Virus record (IMG/VR): IMGVR_UViG_3300005613_000489
Span: 1-20,669 of that record
Source of the DNA: a virus
Strand: one strand, 5' to 3'
DNA: 20,669 bases
Under the pieces are notes generated by a model that saw only the letters and a program-made list of their open reading frames with translations, searched no databases and was not told where the DNA came from. How positions within the stretch are numbered: position 1 is the first letter of the stretch; each line of letters starts with the position of its first letter. This document shows positions 6,910-17,622 of this stretch, one piece after another. The translations under genes were made by a program, and so were the position numbers.

Positions 6910-7743
6910 ATGGCTGGTCCGCAACCAAATACAATTAAAACTGGATTATTAAAAAGTAAGATTTTAAATCTTGCTCAAACTTCAGTATATCTTGTAAAGG
7001 TTCAACCACCTGATCAGGTACAAGGTTTTTTGCGTGAAGCAGGAAGAAATCTAGATTATCTTTCAGAAGGAGCAGATTTAGAACTTCTTTGCACTGATGC
7101 TGTTCTTCCTGGAAATAGTCTTGCAACACATGATGTTACAAGTGATTATCATGGTGTTACTGAGAAGATGGCATATCGTAGAATTTATGATGAGAGTTTA
7201 GATTTAACTTTTTATGTTGATTCTGGTTATAAAATAATTGAATTTTTTGATGGATGGATTGATTATATCACTGGTATTGGAAGAAATATTTCAAGAGAAG
7301 ATACTAAAAATCCTTATATAAATTATAGGATGCAATTCCCAAATACTTATAAGAAAAATATTTTCTTAACTAAATTTGAAAAAGAAAGAAATCGTGCTTT
7401 ATACTATACTTTCATACAAGCTTTCCCTACAAATATTGTTTCGATGCCAGTTTCATATGAGGCAAGCAATATCTTAAAATGTACGGTTTCATTTTCATAT
7501 ATTAGATATGTTAGAGAAAGAGTTCAGGAAGGATTTTTAGCAGAATCACCAAAGAATCCAAATGCTCCAGGAAATCCAGATGTTCCTGTTACACAACCAC
7601 AAAGATTTTCTAGGTTTGGAAATACTGCTGGTCCCAATACTGTTTTCACTGAAAGAGACACTGCGACTGGAGCACGATTAGATGGTGGATCAGATCCACA
7701 ACCAATCACTGAAAGACAAGCCCTGGGATTAGATCCTAGATAA
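6910..7743 (+). CDS. Tail-tube-fold protein, probable gp54-like baseplate tail-tube initiator
   Basis: The 277-aa protein has a body (residues about 15-205) with features of the tail-tube fold shared by gp19, gp48 and gp54: DYHGVTEKMAYRRIYDESLDLTFYVD, a helix KIIEFFDGWIDYITG, YRMQFPNTYKKNIFLTKFE, and a C-terminal strand ILKCTVSFSYIRYVRERV. The last 70 residues are Pro/Gly-rich and probably extended. With gp48 nearby, gp54 (tube initiator) is the most likely T4 equivalent, but a second tube-like protein is possible. It has no clear Shine-Dalgarno sequence before the ATG at 6910. It starts the plus-strand tail operon and diverges from gp4. Confidence 0.7.
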   Translation: MAGPQPNTIKTGLLKSKILNLAQTSVYLVKVQPPDQVQGFLREAGRNLDYLSEGADLELLCTDAVLPGNSLATHDVTSDYHGVTEKMAYRRIYDESLDLTFYVDSGYKIIEFFDGWIDYITGIGRNISREDTKNPYINYRMQFPNTYKKNIFLTKFEKERNRALYYTFIQAFPTNIVSMPVSYEASNILKCTVSFSYIRYVRERVQEGFLAESPKNPNAPGNPDVPVTQPQRFSRFGNTAGPNTVFTERDTATGARLDGGSDPQPITERQALGLDPR

Positions 7744-7783: not shown

Positions 7784-8503
7784 ATGCCTTTACCAACCAT
7801 TGCAACACCAACCTATGAACTTGAGTTGCCCTCTACAGAACAAATAGTTAAGTACAGACCTTTTCTTGTTAAAGAAGAAAAACTTTTAGTTCTTGCATTA
7901 GAAAGTGAAAGTAACAAGGAAATTTCTAATGCTATTAAAGCAGTATTAAAAAATTGTATTCAAACAAAAGGTATTAAGATAGAAACTCTTCCAACCTTTG
8001 ACATTGAATATCTCTTCTTAAATATTCGTGGTAAATCTATTGGAGAAGAGATTGAAGTTAATCTTATTGCTCCTGATGATGGTGCAACTTCTGTCCCAGT
8101 CAAAATTAATATTGATGATATTAAGGTTCAAAAGAGAGAAGGACATACAAAACAAATTAAACTTGATGACAATTTGATGATGGAGATGAAGTATCCATCA
8201 TTGGAGCAATTTATCAAAAGTAATTTTGATATGTCTGATGAGGTAAATATGGACAAGTCTTTTGAACTTGTAGCTATGTGTATTGATAAAATTTATAATG
8301 AAGATGAAGTTTGGTCTGCTGCTGATTGTACGAAGAAAGAAATTGTAGATTTTCTTGAGCAAATGAATACAGTTCAGTTCAAACAAATTGAGAAGTTTTT
8401 TGAAACAATGCCGAAACTTTCTCACGAAATTACCTTTATAAATCCAAAAACAAAAGTAGAGAGCACTGTAGTTCTGGAGGGCCTCTCAAGTTTTTTCGCT
8501 TAG
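7784..8503 (+). CDS. gp26: gp26-like baseplate hub assembly / tail-chaperone protein
   Basis: The 239-aa protein resembles T4 gp26 (208 aa, T4 baseplate family), which acts in hub assembly. Evidence is the N-terminal PSTEQIVKYRPFLVKEEKLLVLALES, the central TLPTFDIEYLFLNIRGKSIGE, and the C-terminal HEITFINPKTKVESTVVLEGLSSFF. It sits immediately before the tape-measure-like genes, the position of tail assembly chaperones in many tailed phages. The final codons TTT TTC form a slippery heptamer T_TTT_TTC at 8491-8497, one Ala codon before the TAG, with GGAGG 10 bases upstream. A -1 shift would fuse the first 238 residues to 62 residues of the next frame, giving a 300-aa product. Confidence 0.88.
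   Translation: MPLPTIATPTYELELPSTEQIVKYRPFLVKEEKLLVLALESESNKEISNAIKAVLKNCIQTKGIKIETLPTFDIEYLFLNIRGKSIGEEIEVNLIAPDDGATSVPVKINIDDIKVQKREGHTKQIKLDDNLMMEMKYPSLEQFIKSNFDMSDEVNMDKSFELVAMCIDKIYNEDEVWSAADCTKKEIVDFLEQMNTVQFKQIEKFFETMPKLSHEITFINPKTKVESTVVLEGLSSFFA
8476..8497 (+). promoter_or_regulatory. Predicted programmed -1 ribosomal frameshift site at the end of gp26
   Basis: GGAGG (8476-8480) is an internal Shine-Dalgarno-like stimulator spaced 10 bases before T_TTT_TTC (8491-8497). The heptamer is in the correct phase, with zero-frame codons TTT at 8492-8494 and TTC at 8495-8497. The zero frame ends 6 bases later at TAG 8501-8503. The -1 frame continues CGC TTA GGA ATG and is open to TAA 8683-8685. 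A weak 9-bp hairpin (8519-8540) lies 21 bases downstream. The layout matches the dnaX and lambda G/GT type of site; function is inferred. Confidence 0.65.
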
Positions 8504-8514
8504 GAATGGTACAT

Positions 8515-8685
8515 ATGGATCTTGAAAATTATTTTAAGATTAATTTTGCTTTGATGCAGTACCATAAATATTCATTAACAGAGATTGAAAATATGATGCC
8601 TTGGGAAAGGGACATCTATATTGCGTTACTACAACAACATCTGGAAGATGAAAAACTAAAGCAACAGCAATCGAATGGCATCTAA
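8515..8685 (+). CDS. Small gp51-position hub assembly ORF, possible frameshift extension of gp26
   Basis: An open frame of 56 codons from ATG 8515 (59 from ATG 8506) encodes MDLENYFKINFALMQYHKY, SLTEIENMMPWERDIYIALLQQHLEDEKLKQQQ. It is well formed, helical and acidic. ATG 8515 has AGGA nine bases upstream, while ATG 8506 has no usable spacing. Position after gp26 is that of T4 gene 51 (hub assembly), but T4 gp51 is much larger and I see no clear similarity, so the symbol is left empty. The frame is -1 relative to gp26 and open through the gp26 end, so it may be expressed as a gp26 fusion, independently, or both. It overlaps the next start by 11 bases. Confidence 0.75.
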   Translation: MDLENYFKINFALMQYHKYSLTEIENMMPWERDIYIALLQQHLEDEKLKQQQSNGI

Positions 8686-10714
8686 GGTAGAGAGATTAAG
8701 AAAAGCCTATGAATTTAAAATCGGCAAAGATCTTGCTGATAAACTTTCAGATGCACAAATTTATCTTCTTTCAAAATATTATAATTCTTTAAGTGAATCA
8801 GAGCAAAGTGATATTGATAATAAGTTTGCCAAAGGAATGTCAAATGACCTTCTTGATATGGCAAATGGAATGGCAGAAGAGAAGAAAGAATCGCCTCCTC
8901 CAGAACCACCACCATCACCAGAACCACCACCTTCTCCTCCACCATCTTCTTCAGCATTAGTTCCAGTTGGACCTCAAAAAACAGATTTAGTTGGTGAGGA
9001 AATTGATTCAAGAATATTATCTATTCTTGGATTAGAAGATGCATTTGACTTTACTTATGAAGAATATCTAACTCTTCTAAAAGAAAAAATGATTGCTGCA
9101 AGAATGGTGCAGCAAGAGATGCCTACAGAAAGTGTAGAATTAATTACAAATGAATATAAGAGAGTTAAGGGTAAAACAGGAAAATTCAAAATTAAAGCAA
9201 AGAAAATTGATATCAATAAAGTAGTTGATAAAAAAGCATCTCCTGGAAAAGTTCAATTAGATCCAAAAAAACTTTTACCTCCTGCAATAGAAGATAAGGA
9301 GCAGGAAGACAAACAAGATAAAAATCAAGATATTTTACAAGAAATCTTAGATTTCTTAAAAGGAGATTTATTAGATTCTTTAAAGTCAATTAACTCTGTT
9401 GTTGAAGATATTCTTACTACTCTCAAAGAACAAAGAGCAATTGATGCAAAGAAGGCAGAACAAGAAAGAAAATCGGCAGAGATTGAAAAAAAGAAAAAAA
9501 GAGAAGCAACTTTAGAAGGTGGGGAAGACAAGAAAACAAGTGATGTAGTTTCTAAAGTTGCAAAACCATTTACAAATTTCTTTGATACGATCAAGAATTT
9601 CTTTATGAATATCTTGCTTGGATCTGCTATCAATTTTTTATTGTCTGTCATTAAAGACCCAAGTATTATTTTGACCCCACTCAAGAACTTTGCCAATATG
9701 ATTATTGGATTCTTGAATAGTATCATTAGTTTCCTGTGGAATATGGTAATGTCACCAATCAATTTTGTAGTCGATCAAATCAATGGTGGAATAAAAGGAT
9801 TAATAGATCAAGTAAATAAGGCAATATCTTTAATACCGGGAGCAAAACCAATCACTGCTCCACAAATACCAAAAGTTCCTGATGCTCCACAAATACCAAC
9901 AATTCCAGTTCAACAACAAGAAGGTGGTGGAGAAACAATTAATATTGGTGATATATCATTAATGAGTGGTGGTGGAGTTGATAATAATACTGGAGTTAAG
10001 ATATCTGGATTTGGAAAAGATACTCAGTTAACTGCACTATCTACAGGTGAAGTTGTATTCAGTAATCCTGCTGCAGACTTTTGGGGAAGAGATAATCTTC
10101 TTGCAATGAATGCAATGGGTGGTGGAACCAATAAACCTAAGTTTGGAGCACTGAATGGTATTCAAGCAATGCAAGGTGGTGGTGTTGCTGGAGCTCCAGC
10201 AGGAGCTCCTGCTGGAGGAGGTAAAATCATTTTTGGTGCAGGACATGCAGCAAAAAATAAAGGAAGTAATGTTGGAACTGATAATTTGCCCGTTCAAGGG
10301 ACACAAGATCCAACAACAAAGGTGCCAGAGTCAGTGGCAATGATGCATTTGATTGAATCGATGCAAAAAATAGTTTCATCAAATCCGCAATTATATTCTA
10401 ATATTGGATTTCATAATATTACAGAAACTAAAGGTCCTCGTGGAATGAGCGCATCAACAAAAAGAATAGAGGGTCGAGGCGATCAATATATAGAATTTCA
10501 TTTGGATCAGTGGGGTGGGGGTGGAAGATCTGGGGTAATATCCAGAAATAGAACACCTATTGATAATGCTCTTGGGTCTGTGTTTGGAGTTTTCCCAGAG
10601 AATTTTAAACAGGGAGATCTTGCAGTTGCGGAGGCAGGTGGAACTATTTTAGAACTTGCTGCAATTGATGATCCAAAAATTCGTTCGTTTTTAAATGAAG
10701 CAAAGCGAAATTAA
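8675..10714 (+). CDS. Tape-measure-like tail protein with amidase-3-like domain, ended by an in-frame TAA
   Basis: The 679-aa protein lies where the tape measure or hub length-control gene is expected. In order: a helical N-terminus (1-70), a Pro-rich linker (72-94), a Lys/Glu coiled coil (about 209-282), a hydrophobic stretch FFDTIKNFFMNILLGSAINFLL and following segments (about 300-362), Gly/Pro-rich repeats, and a C-terminal domain (about 515-675) resembling zinc N-acetylmuramoyl-L-alanine amidases: GAGH with His524, Glu552 in VPES, His609 in EFHLD and catalytic-type Glu660 in ILELAAIDDP. All four expected residues are present, so it may cut peptidoglycan during entry. A TAA at 10712-10714 ends it, yet the same frame stays open for 86 more codons. 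The name tape measure is by position and architecture only. Confidence 0.8.
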   Translation: MASKVERLRKAYEFKIGKDLADKLSDAQIYLLSKYYNSLSESEQSDIDNKFAKGMSNDLLDMANGMAEEKKESPPPEPPPSPEPPPSPPPSSSALVPVGPQKTDLVGEEIDSRILSILGLEDAFDFTYEEYLTLLKEKMIAARMVQQEMPTESVELITNEYKRVKGKTGKFKIKAKKIDINKVVDKKASPGKVQLDPKKLLPPAIEDKEQEDKQDKNQDILQEILDFLKGDLLDSLKSINSVVEDILTTLKEQRAIDAKKAEQERKSAEIEKKKKREATLEGGEDKKTSDVVSKVAKPFTNFFDTIKNFFMNILLGSAINFLLSVIKDPSIILTPLKNFANMIIGFLNSIISFLWNMVMSPINFVVDQINGGIKGLIDQVNKAISLIPGAKPITAPQIPKVPDAPQIPTIPVQQQEGGGETINIGDISLMSGGGVDNNTGVKISGFGKDTQLTALSTGEVVFSNPAADFWGRDNLLAMNAMGGGTNKPKFGALNGIQAMQGGGVAGAPAGAPAGGGKIIFGAGHAAKNKGSNVGTDNLPVQGTQDPTTKVPESVAMMHLIESMQKIVSSNPQLYSNIGFHNITETKGPRGMSASTKRIEGRGDQYIEFHLDQWGGGGRSGVISRNRTPIDNALGSVFGVFPENFKQGDLAVAEAGGTILELAAIDDPKIRSFLNEAKRN

Positions 10715-14950: not shown

Positions 14951-15163
14951 ATGGAAAACATCGAACAGCACATCGAATCAGATAAAAAGGAACTTCAAGA
15001 TCCTAATATTTCACCTCAACGCCGTCGTCATATTCAATCTGAGTTAGAAGATCTTGAGCAATATCATGAAAGACATCCAGATGATCATCATGATCCCACA
15101 TCATTAGAAATTTATTGTGATAGTAATCCAAATGCACCAGAATGTAAAATATACGAAGATTAA
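14951..15163 (+). CDS. cp12: CP12-like Calvin-cycle regulator (GAPDH-binding C-terminus only)
   Basis: The 70-aa acidic, disordered-looking protein ends in LEIYCDSNPNAPECKIYED, the C-terminal CP12 signature: Cys56 and Cys65 are spaced by eight residues, as in the redox loop that inserts into glyceraldehyde-3-phosphate dehydrogenase. In cyanobacteria CP12 ties GAPDH to phosphoribulokinase and shuts down the Calvin cycle in the dark; phage copies are thought to divert carbon to the pentose phosphate pathway. Here the N-terminal cysteine pair is absent and the AWDxVEEL region is replaced by SELEDLEQYH, so PRK binding may be lost or altered. It lies between gp27 and gp5 with a TAATG overlap into gp5, so it is expressed as a late tail-operon gene. 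The motif match is strong; function is inferred. Confidence 0.85.
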   Translation: MENIEQHIESDKKELQDPNISPQRRRHIQSELEDLEQYHERHPDDHHDPTSLEIYCDSNPNAPECKIYED

Positions 15164-17622
15164 TGATAGAGCAAGGATTATTTAAAAGACATTTTATGGG
15201 AAGAGATGGATTTATCTGGTGGATAGGCCAGGTAGTCAGTGATAAAGAGTGGGTTGCTAACATTTCTGGAAATCCGACTGACACTAATGAATCACATCTT
15301 GGATTTGACTATCGATATAAAGTTCGTATTATAGGATACCACACTGCAATAAAATCTGATTTAACAGACAATGATCTTCCTTGGGCATCTGTGATGCTCC
15401 CAGTGACTGCTGGTGGCGGTGGTGGTAATGTAAGTCAAACACCGTTAATTAAACAAGGAAATTTTGTTTATGGATTCTTTCTTGATGGTGAGGATGCTCA
15501 ACAACCTATTATCATGGGAATCATTGGATACAATCAATATACGCCCATTCTTGGAAATTCTCCTGAAGATATAGGGTTTAAACCTTTCACTGGATATAAT
15601 AATAGTGATCCTATTGCGACTTATGGAATTAAATCTGTTCCAAATGCTGGAGAAATAGCACCAACTGCTGATGGTAATGTATCATCTAGCACCTCAAAAG
15701 TTACGAACGATACTCTTGATCAAAGTGTTGTTGGTCAAAGTGGAAATATAAAATCTATAGATAAGGTCCTTAAGGGGAAAAGTAAGAAAACAAAAACTCC
15801 TTTACCAAAAACAACAGAGTGTGATAAATTTCAACCAGGAGTTATTCAATTAAAAATACAAGAATTAATTCAGTCAATAGAAAGTGCAAAAAAATCTGTA
15901 TATTCTTGGAGAGAAAATTTTACATCTAAGTTAATTAATGAGGAAGGCCAACAATATAGTTTAGAAGAGTATATTATATACAAAGTTAATAATGTTGCCA
16001 GATTTATCTCTGGTGGATTAAAAAATATTATTTCAGACATACAAAAATTCATTACTCGAAAAGTTAATAATGGATTAAAGGATCTGTATTTCATTTTATT
16101 TCCCAATGAGCAACAAGAAGCAAAAAAATCAGTTGATACTGCAATGGATTTACTTGCTTGTTTGTTTAAAAGAATAATTCAAAATCTTTTTAATATTGTA
16201 CTAAATTTTTTGAATTCTATTATTGATAGATTTATCAATGCTCCTCTTTGTGCAATTGAAAACTTTATTGCAGCTCTTCTTGGAAAATTAACAGGTTTAA
16301 TTTCAAGTGCTGTTGATGCAATTTTAAGACCATTAAACGCAATCTTTGGTGTCATTGATTTGTTTGGTGGTGTTGCTGATTTTATCGTTGATATACTTTC
16401 ATTTTTGAAATGTGAAATAAAACCATCTTGTCCAAAACTTGATTCTTGGAGCTTAGATTCTAATATTATTCCACCATTAACTATTGATATTGATTCTTTC
16501 ATTAGTAAAATTGAAGACTTTGCAAGTGGAATCACTCAAAGTATTGATCCTGATAATTTTAATTTTGATTTAGATTTTAGTGATATTTTTGAGGATACTT
16601 GTAATGTTGGTCCAATTTTTTGTGGTCCTCCAAATGTTGTTTTCCTTGGTGGTGGAGGAAGTGGAGCATCTGGAAATGCAGTTGTGAATTCTCTTGGAGA
16701 AATTGTTGGAATTGATATTATAAATTCTGGAAGTGGTTATTCTACAAATCCATTAGTTATACTTGAAGATGCATGTGGAAATGGAAGTGGTGCTATTGTA
16801 AGAACTGTTATTGGATCTGTTTCTCCTGCAAGTGATGGAATAGGCTATGTTTCTGATCCTGATGGCAATGAAACGGGTGTGACTGTTATTGGATCTGTTT
16901 CTCCTGCAAGTGATGGAATAGGCTATGTTTCTGATCCTGATGGCAATGAAACGGGTGTGATTGGTGTTGTGATTGAGGAACCTGGATTTGGATATCTTCC
17001 TACAAATGATGGAAGTCAAGGTGGAGATCGTAGAACTTGGAGCACTCCAGAACAAACAGTGGTGCAAAGAGAAAATGGAACATATGACATTCCATATAAT
17101 CCTGGAGATGTAATCGATCTTTTCCCTGGAGATACCGTAAGAACACCTCCAGGATCCAATGTTGCTGATAATATTCCTGGCGGAACTTATACAACAGTTA
17201 ATAGTTCAATAACAATTACAGCTCCAGCATATAATAAAGACTCTCTTTATAAATCTGGAACGGCAGGAAATTATCCATATGATGGAAACGGAAGATATCC
17301 AGTAATTACTTACTTGTGTGATGTTAAAATTGCTGATTCTGGATTTGGATATCAGGAGGGAGATCAAATTATTATTGAACCAAATTATGGTGCAAAATTA
17401 GAACCAGTGATCGGAGAATTTGGAAAAATTACAAAGGTAAATATTATTTCTTCTGGAGAAGGATTTAAAGAATTTCCATTGATCTATATTGAAAGTTCTA
17501 CAGGATCAAATGCAAAGATTCTTCCAAGATTCTGTATAGATAGGGTTGGAGAATCTGAACTTAAAGAACCTGGAATTCTTGATAAAGTTGTGACCGTTGT
17601 AGATTGTGTAGGTAAAAATTAA
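15163..17622 (+). CDS. gp5: gp5-like baseplate hub protein without visible lysozyme domain
   Basis: The 819-aa protein begins with the gp5 OB-fold domain (about residues 1-130): GLFKRHFMGRDGFIWWIGQV, YKVRIIGYHT, DLPWASVMLPV and FFLDGEDAQQPIIMGIIGYN. T4 gp5 (575 aa) then has a lysozyme and a beta-helix. Here residues about 220-430 are a long hydrophobic, helical segment with no lysozyme Glu/Asp/Thr pattern, and residues about 500-819 are Gly-rich with repeated strands such as INSGSGYSTNPLVILE, DSGFGYQEGDQIIIEP and ISSGEGFKEFPLIYIE. Residues 548-599 are an exact 26-residue duplication. It is coupled to CP12 upstream and to the spike-like gene downstream, both by TAATG. Confidence 0.85.
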   Translation: MIEQGLFKRHFMGRDGFIWWIGQVVSDKEWVANISGNPTDTNESHLGFDYRYKVRIIGYHTAIKSDLTDNDLPWASVMLPVTAGGGGGNVSQTPLIKQGNFVYGFFLDGEDAQQPIIMGIIGYNQYTPILGNSPEDIGFKPFTGYNNSDPIATYGIKSVPNAGEIAPTADGNVSSSTSKVTNDTLDQSVVGQSGNIKSIDKVLKGKSKKTKTPLPKTTECDKFQPGVIQLKIQELIQSIESAKKSVYSWRENFTSKLINEEGQQYSLEEYIIYKVNNVARFISGGLKNIISDIQKFITRKVNNGLKDLYFILFPNEQQEAKKSVDTAMDLLACLFKRIIQNLFNIVLNFLNSIIDRFINAPLCAIENFIAALLGKLTGLISSAVDAILRPLNAIFGVIDLFGGVADFIVDILSFLKCEIKPSCPKLDSWSLDSNIIPPLTIDIDSFISKIEDFASGITQSIDPDNFNFDLDFSDIFEDTCNVGPIFCGPPNVVFLGGGGSGASGNAVVNSLGEIVGIDIINSGSGYSTNPLVILEDACGNGSGAIVRTVIGSVSPASDGIGYVSDPDGNETGVTVIGSVSPASDGIGYVSDPDGNETGVIGVVIEEPGFGYLPTNDGSQGGDRRTWSTPEQTVVQRENGTYDIPYNPGDVIDLFPGDTVRTPPGSNVADNIPGGTYTTVNSSITITAPAYNKDSLYKSGTAGNYPYDGNGRYPVITYLCDVKIADSGFGYQEGDQIIIEPNYGAKLEPVIGEFGKITKVNIISSGEGFKEFPLIYIESSTGSNAKILPRFCIDRVGESELKEPGILDKVVTVVDCVGKN
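16804..16959 (+). repeat. Exact in-frame 78-base tandem duplication inside gp5
   Basis: Copy 1 is 16804-16881 and copy 2 is 16882-16959. I see no mismatch between them. The unit of 26 codons begins TVIGSVSPAS and ends DGNETGV, so it lengthens the Gly-rich beta region without breaking the frame. Identity at third codon positions implies a recent event or active recombination, or a read-assembly artefact. Confidence 0.93.

Follow-up and report, generated by a model that had tools for sequence, protein, structure and literature searches.

In the dnaX gene of E. coli, a slippery heptamer is combined with a Shine-Dalgarno (SD)-like element about 10 nt upstream and with a 3' stem-loop. Among phages, the abstract of the 2022 study by Vladimirov and co-workers is said to describe frameshifting as conserved in several T4-like groups, with T4 using genes 26 and 51. 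Poly-T slippery sequences are known in the TAC-N genes of T4-like phages (PMC12846349, citing Vladimirov, Gautam and Davidson, Virology 2022), and some of these phages are described as carrying a short copy along with a fused long copy (PMC10885494, citing Vladimirov et al. 2022). T4 gp51 is needed for assembly and is absent from the particle (PMC3004832). The original prediction for the locus described here had considered its mechanism undescribed, a claim that falls with the 2022 report of a T4-like chaperone frameshift, a study in which the chaperone genes of T4-like phages were identified (Vladimirov et al., via PMC12846349 and PMC10885494). As far as that report is conveyed by these two citing papers, the main claim is already published in kind, and the present locus adds one more case, with very good support, from an uncultured marine cyanophage.

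The locus lies in a 20,669-nt stretch of viral DNA (IMG/VR record IMGVR_UViG_3300005613_000489, positions 1 to 20,669; hereafter, the window), and all of its features given below are on the + strand. A gp26 homologue of 239 aa (7784..8503; PF12322, phrog_150), the short form (TAC-N/gpG-like), scores 246.9 bits against PF12322, T4_baseplate (gp26/gp51), for which the gathering score is 24.5. It sits between a tail tube-like gene upstream (6910..7743; PF23849, phrog_45) and a tape-measure-like ORF of 679 aa downstream (8675..10714), the latter assigned by weak matches (phrog_35029, E 6e-15; phrog_1272 tape measure, E 4e-4). In Pelagibacter phage HTVC008M, an ORF shortly 3' of gp26/gp51 is named 'putative tail tape measure'. 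In position and in its short/long logic, the window locus matches lambda gpG/gpGT (PMC5009743), although its slippery site is T_TTT_TTC and its extension comprises just 62 aa. The proposal of a programmed -1 frameshift of the lambda G/GT type just ahead of the tape measure gene is strongly supported by comparison, with the tape measure itself assigned by weak matches.

A short form and a long form with an extra C-terminal domain are seen in sequence, both in the window fusion and in T4 gp26 versus gp51. The predicted structure of the window gp26 (mean pLDDT 85) matches gp26-type proteins of many phages. A fold search of the PDB with this model placed the HK97 tail assembly chaperone 2ob9 at rank 3, a match that is not significant (E 0.73, prob 0.30); a PDB sequence search with a gp26 profile returned chance matches only, and an NCBIfam search returned no meaningful match. 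By analogy, we infer that the window gp26 and its fusion function as tail assembly chaperones.

The last codons of gp26 (8489-8500) read AGT TTT TTC GCT and are followed by the 0-frame stop TAG (8501..8503), so that the slippery heptamer T_TTT_TTC (8491..8497) stands in gp26 phase one codon before the stop. A candidate stimulator, the SD-like GGAGGG (8476..8481), lies 9 nt upstream of the heptamer, or 10 nt when GGAGG (8476-8480) is taken as the element. Ribosomes slipping by -1 would continue with CGC TTA GGA ATG GTA CAT ATG and on to a stop ending at 8685. The resulting extension of 62 codons plus stop (8497..8685) matches phrog_634, is homologous to the T4 gp51 C-terminus and corresponds to the gp51 C-terminal domain; joined to 7784-8497, it gives a predicted long form of 300 aa (TAC-NC/gpGT-like; 7784..8685) that includes SSFFRLG. 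The heptamer in phase, the GGAGG ten bases upstream, the 62 further open residues and a 300-aa product spanning SSFFRLG had all been part of the original prediction, and each was recovered at these positions. The bare TTTTTTC string is no rarity in the AT-rich window, with 13 matches against a chance expectation of about 20 and only one on the + (coding) strand, and the argument rests on phase and conservation.

We consider it very probable, from sequence and comparison, that a programmed -1 ribosomal frameshift at this site yields short and long tail assembly chaperones. During translation of gp26, GGAGGG in the mRNA would be paired with 16S rRNA some 10 nt behind the slippery T_TTT_TTC. There, both the P-site and the A-site tRNA (Phe) would re-pair one base back, and a fraction of ribosomes would pass the gp26 stop and add 62 residues from the -1 frame. 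Two products would result, a short TAC-N and a rarer, long TAC-NC tail assembly chaperone. By analogy with lambda gpG/gpGT, both forms would cover the tape measure protein and bring in tail tube subunits, and neither would remain in the virion. We infer that frameshifting takes place in infected cells. The junction resembles E. coli dnaX in joining an SD-like element about 10 nt upstream to a slippery heptamer, but differs from it in the heptamer itself (A_AAA_AAG in dnaX, T_TTT_TTC here) and in having a weak 3' structure.

Conservation was assessed in a close and a wide set of relatives. The close set consisted of 80 IMG/VR viral contigs encoding gp26 at 69-82% amino acid identity, plus the window. 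T_TTT_TTC is found in identical phase in 81/81 of these, separated from the stop by one codon, and either GAGGG or GAAGG(G/A) keeps a constant distance from the heptamer. The small ORF keeps a constant -1-frame offset throughout this set except in L027, which is without a small-ORF match and has little downstream sequence at that locus. The wide set comprised 155 distinct junctions from further scans and named phage records, reduced to 154 by leaving out L187. The gp26 of L187, from a record sharing 99% identity with Pelagibacter phage HTVC008M, is interrupted early by an in-frame stop, which was taken for a sequence error. An in-phase T_TTT_TTY lies 0-2 codons before the stop in 151 of these 154 distinct junctions, and each of the 151 has 42-69 open codons in the -1 frame. 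Carriers of the heptamer include phages of Synechococcus, Prochlorococcus, Pelagibacter, Methylophilales, Sinorhizobium, Agrobacterium, Vibrio, Aeromonas (Aeh1), Stenotrophomonas and Pseudomonas.

Within the gp26 genes of the 151 heptamer-bearing relatives, an in-phase T_TTT_TTY occurs 151 times at the junction and once anywhere else. The two Phe codons of the heptamer (TTT, TTC) are the only columns without synonymous change among 205 scored in an alignment of 132 cyanophage-type genes; the other conserved Phe columns in these genes vary between a clear predominance of TTT and equal use of TTT and TTC. The codon before the heptamer varies (AGT, TCT, GCT, GAT, GGT), its last base being T in all those listed, and the -1 frame opens with CGN (Arg) in 131/151. 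Conservation of the heptamer, its phase and the open -1 frame across relatives, as the original prediction would have it, extends to 151/154 junctions, and the SD-like element is conserved as well. Relatives without the heptamer, named in advance as evidence to the contrary, do occur and amount to 3/154, all of them with TAATG.

The composition of the upstream element is itself informative. At the Glu codon of GAG-GG, GAG outnumbers GAA by 102 to 35, the background GAG:GAA ratio being about 1:2 (binomial 6e-23), and GAA is usually paired there with GGG as the next Gly codon, versus GAG-GGN (odds ratio 48, Fisher 1e-14), P-values that treat related sequences as independent and are hence overstated, although the direction is clear. 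Through this compensation of GAA by GGG, the stretch stays purine-rich. The mean duplex with the anti-SD (16S tail) amounts to -8.3 kcal/mol, compared with -5.8 kcal/mol for synonymous controls, and the spacing between SD-like element and heptamer is 9-11 nt in 144/151 relatives. In the window, the anti-SD duplex reaches -11.0 kcal/mol at GGAGGG; at the gp26 start it is -2.0 kcal/mol. These codon choices indicate that the SD-like element is under synonymous selection at the family level.

A 3' stem-loop had been absent from the original prediction. RNA structure downstream of the heptamer was evaluated in 147 sequences against controls in which the -1-frame protein was kept fixed and codons were redrawn by usage. 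The 42 nt starting about 5 nt past the heptamer fold more stably than these controls (mean z -2.42, 82% below -1), and the excess weakens in stretches further 3'. The stem-loops differ by lineage (P-SSM2, -15.6 kcal/mol; S-PM2, -14.2 kcal/mol; P-HM1, -12.0 kcal/mol); those of the relatives are stronger than that of the window and often lie 5-8 nt 3' of the heptamer. The predicted hairpin of the window (8518..8541, -7.2 kcal/mol), 20 nt 3' of the heptamer, is weak, with z from -1.1 to -2.5 by stretch and shuffle, and oddly placed. A universal stimulator hairpin of 5 bp (GRUCC-AUAU-GGAYC, +17 to +30) was considered as well; all five pairs are formed in only 55/137 relatives, with a mismatch in the window, and this candidate was dropped and lineage-specific stem-loops adopted instead. 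Synonymous permutation left some signal for the same hairpin (3.48 pairs vs 3.36, sd 0.03).

T runs of the kind present at the junction can cause slippage of RNA polymerase. A fused message might thus be created on the six-T run by transcriptional and not ribosomal slippage, but we regard this as extremely improbable, given that the codon phase is fixed, that T_TTT_TTC and not T_TTT_TTT is found in 141/151 heptamer-bearing relatives, and that both an SD-like element at 9-11 nt spacing and a 3' RNA structure appear to be selected. A fixed phase, an SD-like element and a 3' structure matter to ribosomes, not to a polymerase.

In GenBank, gp51 is annotated as a separate CDS in P-SSM2, S-PM2 and HTVC008M, in line with a scheme of two overlapping genes in which a short, independent gp51 would be translated from ATG 8506 or ATG 8515 (8506..8517), by ordinary initiation or by termination-coupled reinitiation. 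An ATG is present at the position equivalent to 8506 (+15) in 78/137 relatives and at that equivalent to 8515 (+24) in 83/137. In the window, the anti-SD duplex is +1.4 kcal/mol at ATG 8506 and -5.9 kcal/mol, weak to modest, at ATG 8515, which is preceded by an SD-like AGGA; some independent initiation at ATG 8515 is possible. The TAATG overlaps discussed below would likewise suit two genes. An independent gp51 gene should, however, have a conserved start codon, whereas the small-ORF starts vary and come with weak ribosome-binding sites: 28/137 relatives have neither ATG, and in seven phages (Syn2, S-CAM1, S-WAM2, S-RIM8, Aeh1, Melnitz-3 and OLIVR5) no ATG occurs until extension codon 16-19, inside the conserved domain. 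Two overlapping genes would moreover leave unexplained the invariant heptamer, an SD-like element located 25-35 nt from the ATGs, and the fact that T4 gp51 is homologous across the entire fusion. We consider this arrangement very unlikely.

The programmed frameshift, on the other hand, would explain an oddity in the annotation of cyanophage gp51, for which several inspected records list no gene and others a separate one. Cyanophage gp51 is only about 20% as long as other T4-like gp51 proteins, and gp51 was reported missing from Aeh1 (Sullivan et al. 2010, PMC3037559). Records without any gp51 gene are those of ACG-2014d, Syn2, S-CAM1, S-WAM2 and Aeh1, as expected if annotators required a start codon. 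In Aeh1, T_TTT_TTC and a -1 extension left out of the annotation are found just after gp26 (1848-2624). The missing N-terminus of cyanophage gp51 would be gp26, joined by frameshifting, and annotation as a joined CDS would correct the cyanophage gp51 records.

The T4 hub assembly chaperones gp26 (208 aa) and gp51 (249 aa) are encoded by adjoining genes on opposite strands, unlike the window, in which gp26 is followed by a -1 frame extension; no frameshift can join genes in this orientation. Both T4 proteins match PF12322 over the gp26-like part, as in the window, while gp51 has a C-terminal extension that additionally matches phrog_634, the small-ORF family, and the window fusion aligns end to end with T4 gp51. 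Since gp51 thus combines a PF12322 domain with the small-ORF extension, T4 encodes, judging by these matches, the short and long forms as two separate genes. The same composition supports the earlier suggestion that the gp26/gp51 pair belongs with the G/GT chaperone group. Aes012 has a two-gene arrangement like that of T4. A protein tree intended to place the gp26/gp51 duplication in time joined long branches to one another, and no date is readable from it.

A TAATG stop-start overlap, with no heptamer, is found in the Vibrio phages D533 and VAP7 and in Pseudomonas phage Cygsa01, which suggests stop-start coupling replacing frameshifting in these phages. A scan using the Vibrio D533 gp26 found no relatives. 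These three relatives, the modest SD of ATG 8515 and the weak, oddly placed hairpin of the window were counted against the frameshift reading.

Heptamer and TAATG occur together in Vibrio nt-1, Vibrio VH7D, Stenotrophomonas BUCT608 and S-CRM01, and such junctions possibly represent an intermediate state. Their coexistence would also fit the operation of both routes, in which the long form would arise by frameshifting and, in some lineages, a free gp51 C-domain would be added by translation that starts internally or reinitiates, as would ATG 8515 with its weak SD in the window. The variation of small-ORF start codons across the family speaks against such a combination, which we regard as rather unlikely.

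Seen more broadly, the evidence is evenly balanced on whether T4-like and related myoviruses make the chaperone pair in three ways: by a -1 frameshift cassette with constant heptamer and SD-like element and lineage-specific, repeatedly re-invented 3' stem-loops, by two genes (T4, Aes012), or by a TAATG overlap without heptamer (VAP7, D533, Cygsa01). If true, the turnover of stem-loops and the third, TAATG-based state would extend the 2022 report. The evidence on stimulators and the TAATG state were not found in the literature searched, which covered Vladimirov et al. (2022) through the two citing papers; the selection measured on the SD-like element, the 3' stem-loops that differ between lineages and the overlap-based third state may be new. 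The matched systems, that is frameshift, two genes and overlap, form a natural set for asking why the short:long ratio matters.

Elsewhere in the window, a perfect 78-bp tandem duplication (two copies, 100% identical) was observed at 16804-16960, in frame within an 819-aa ORF (15163-17622); either it is of very recent origin or it was produced by the assembly.
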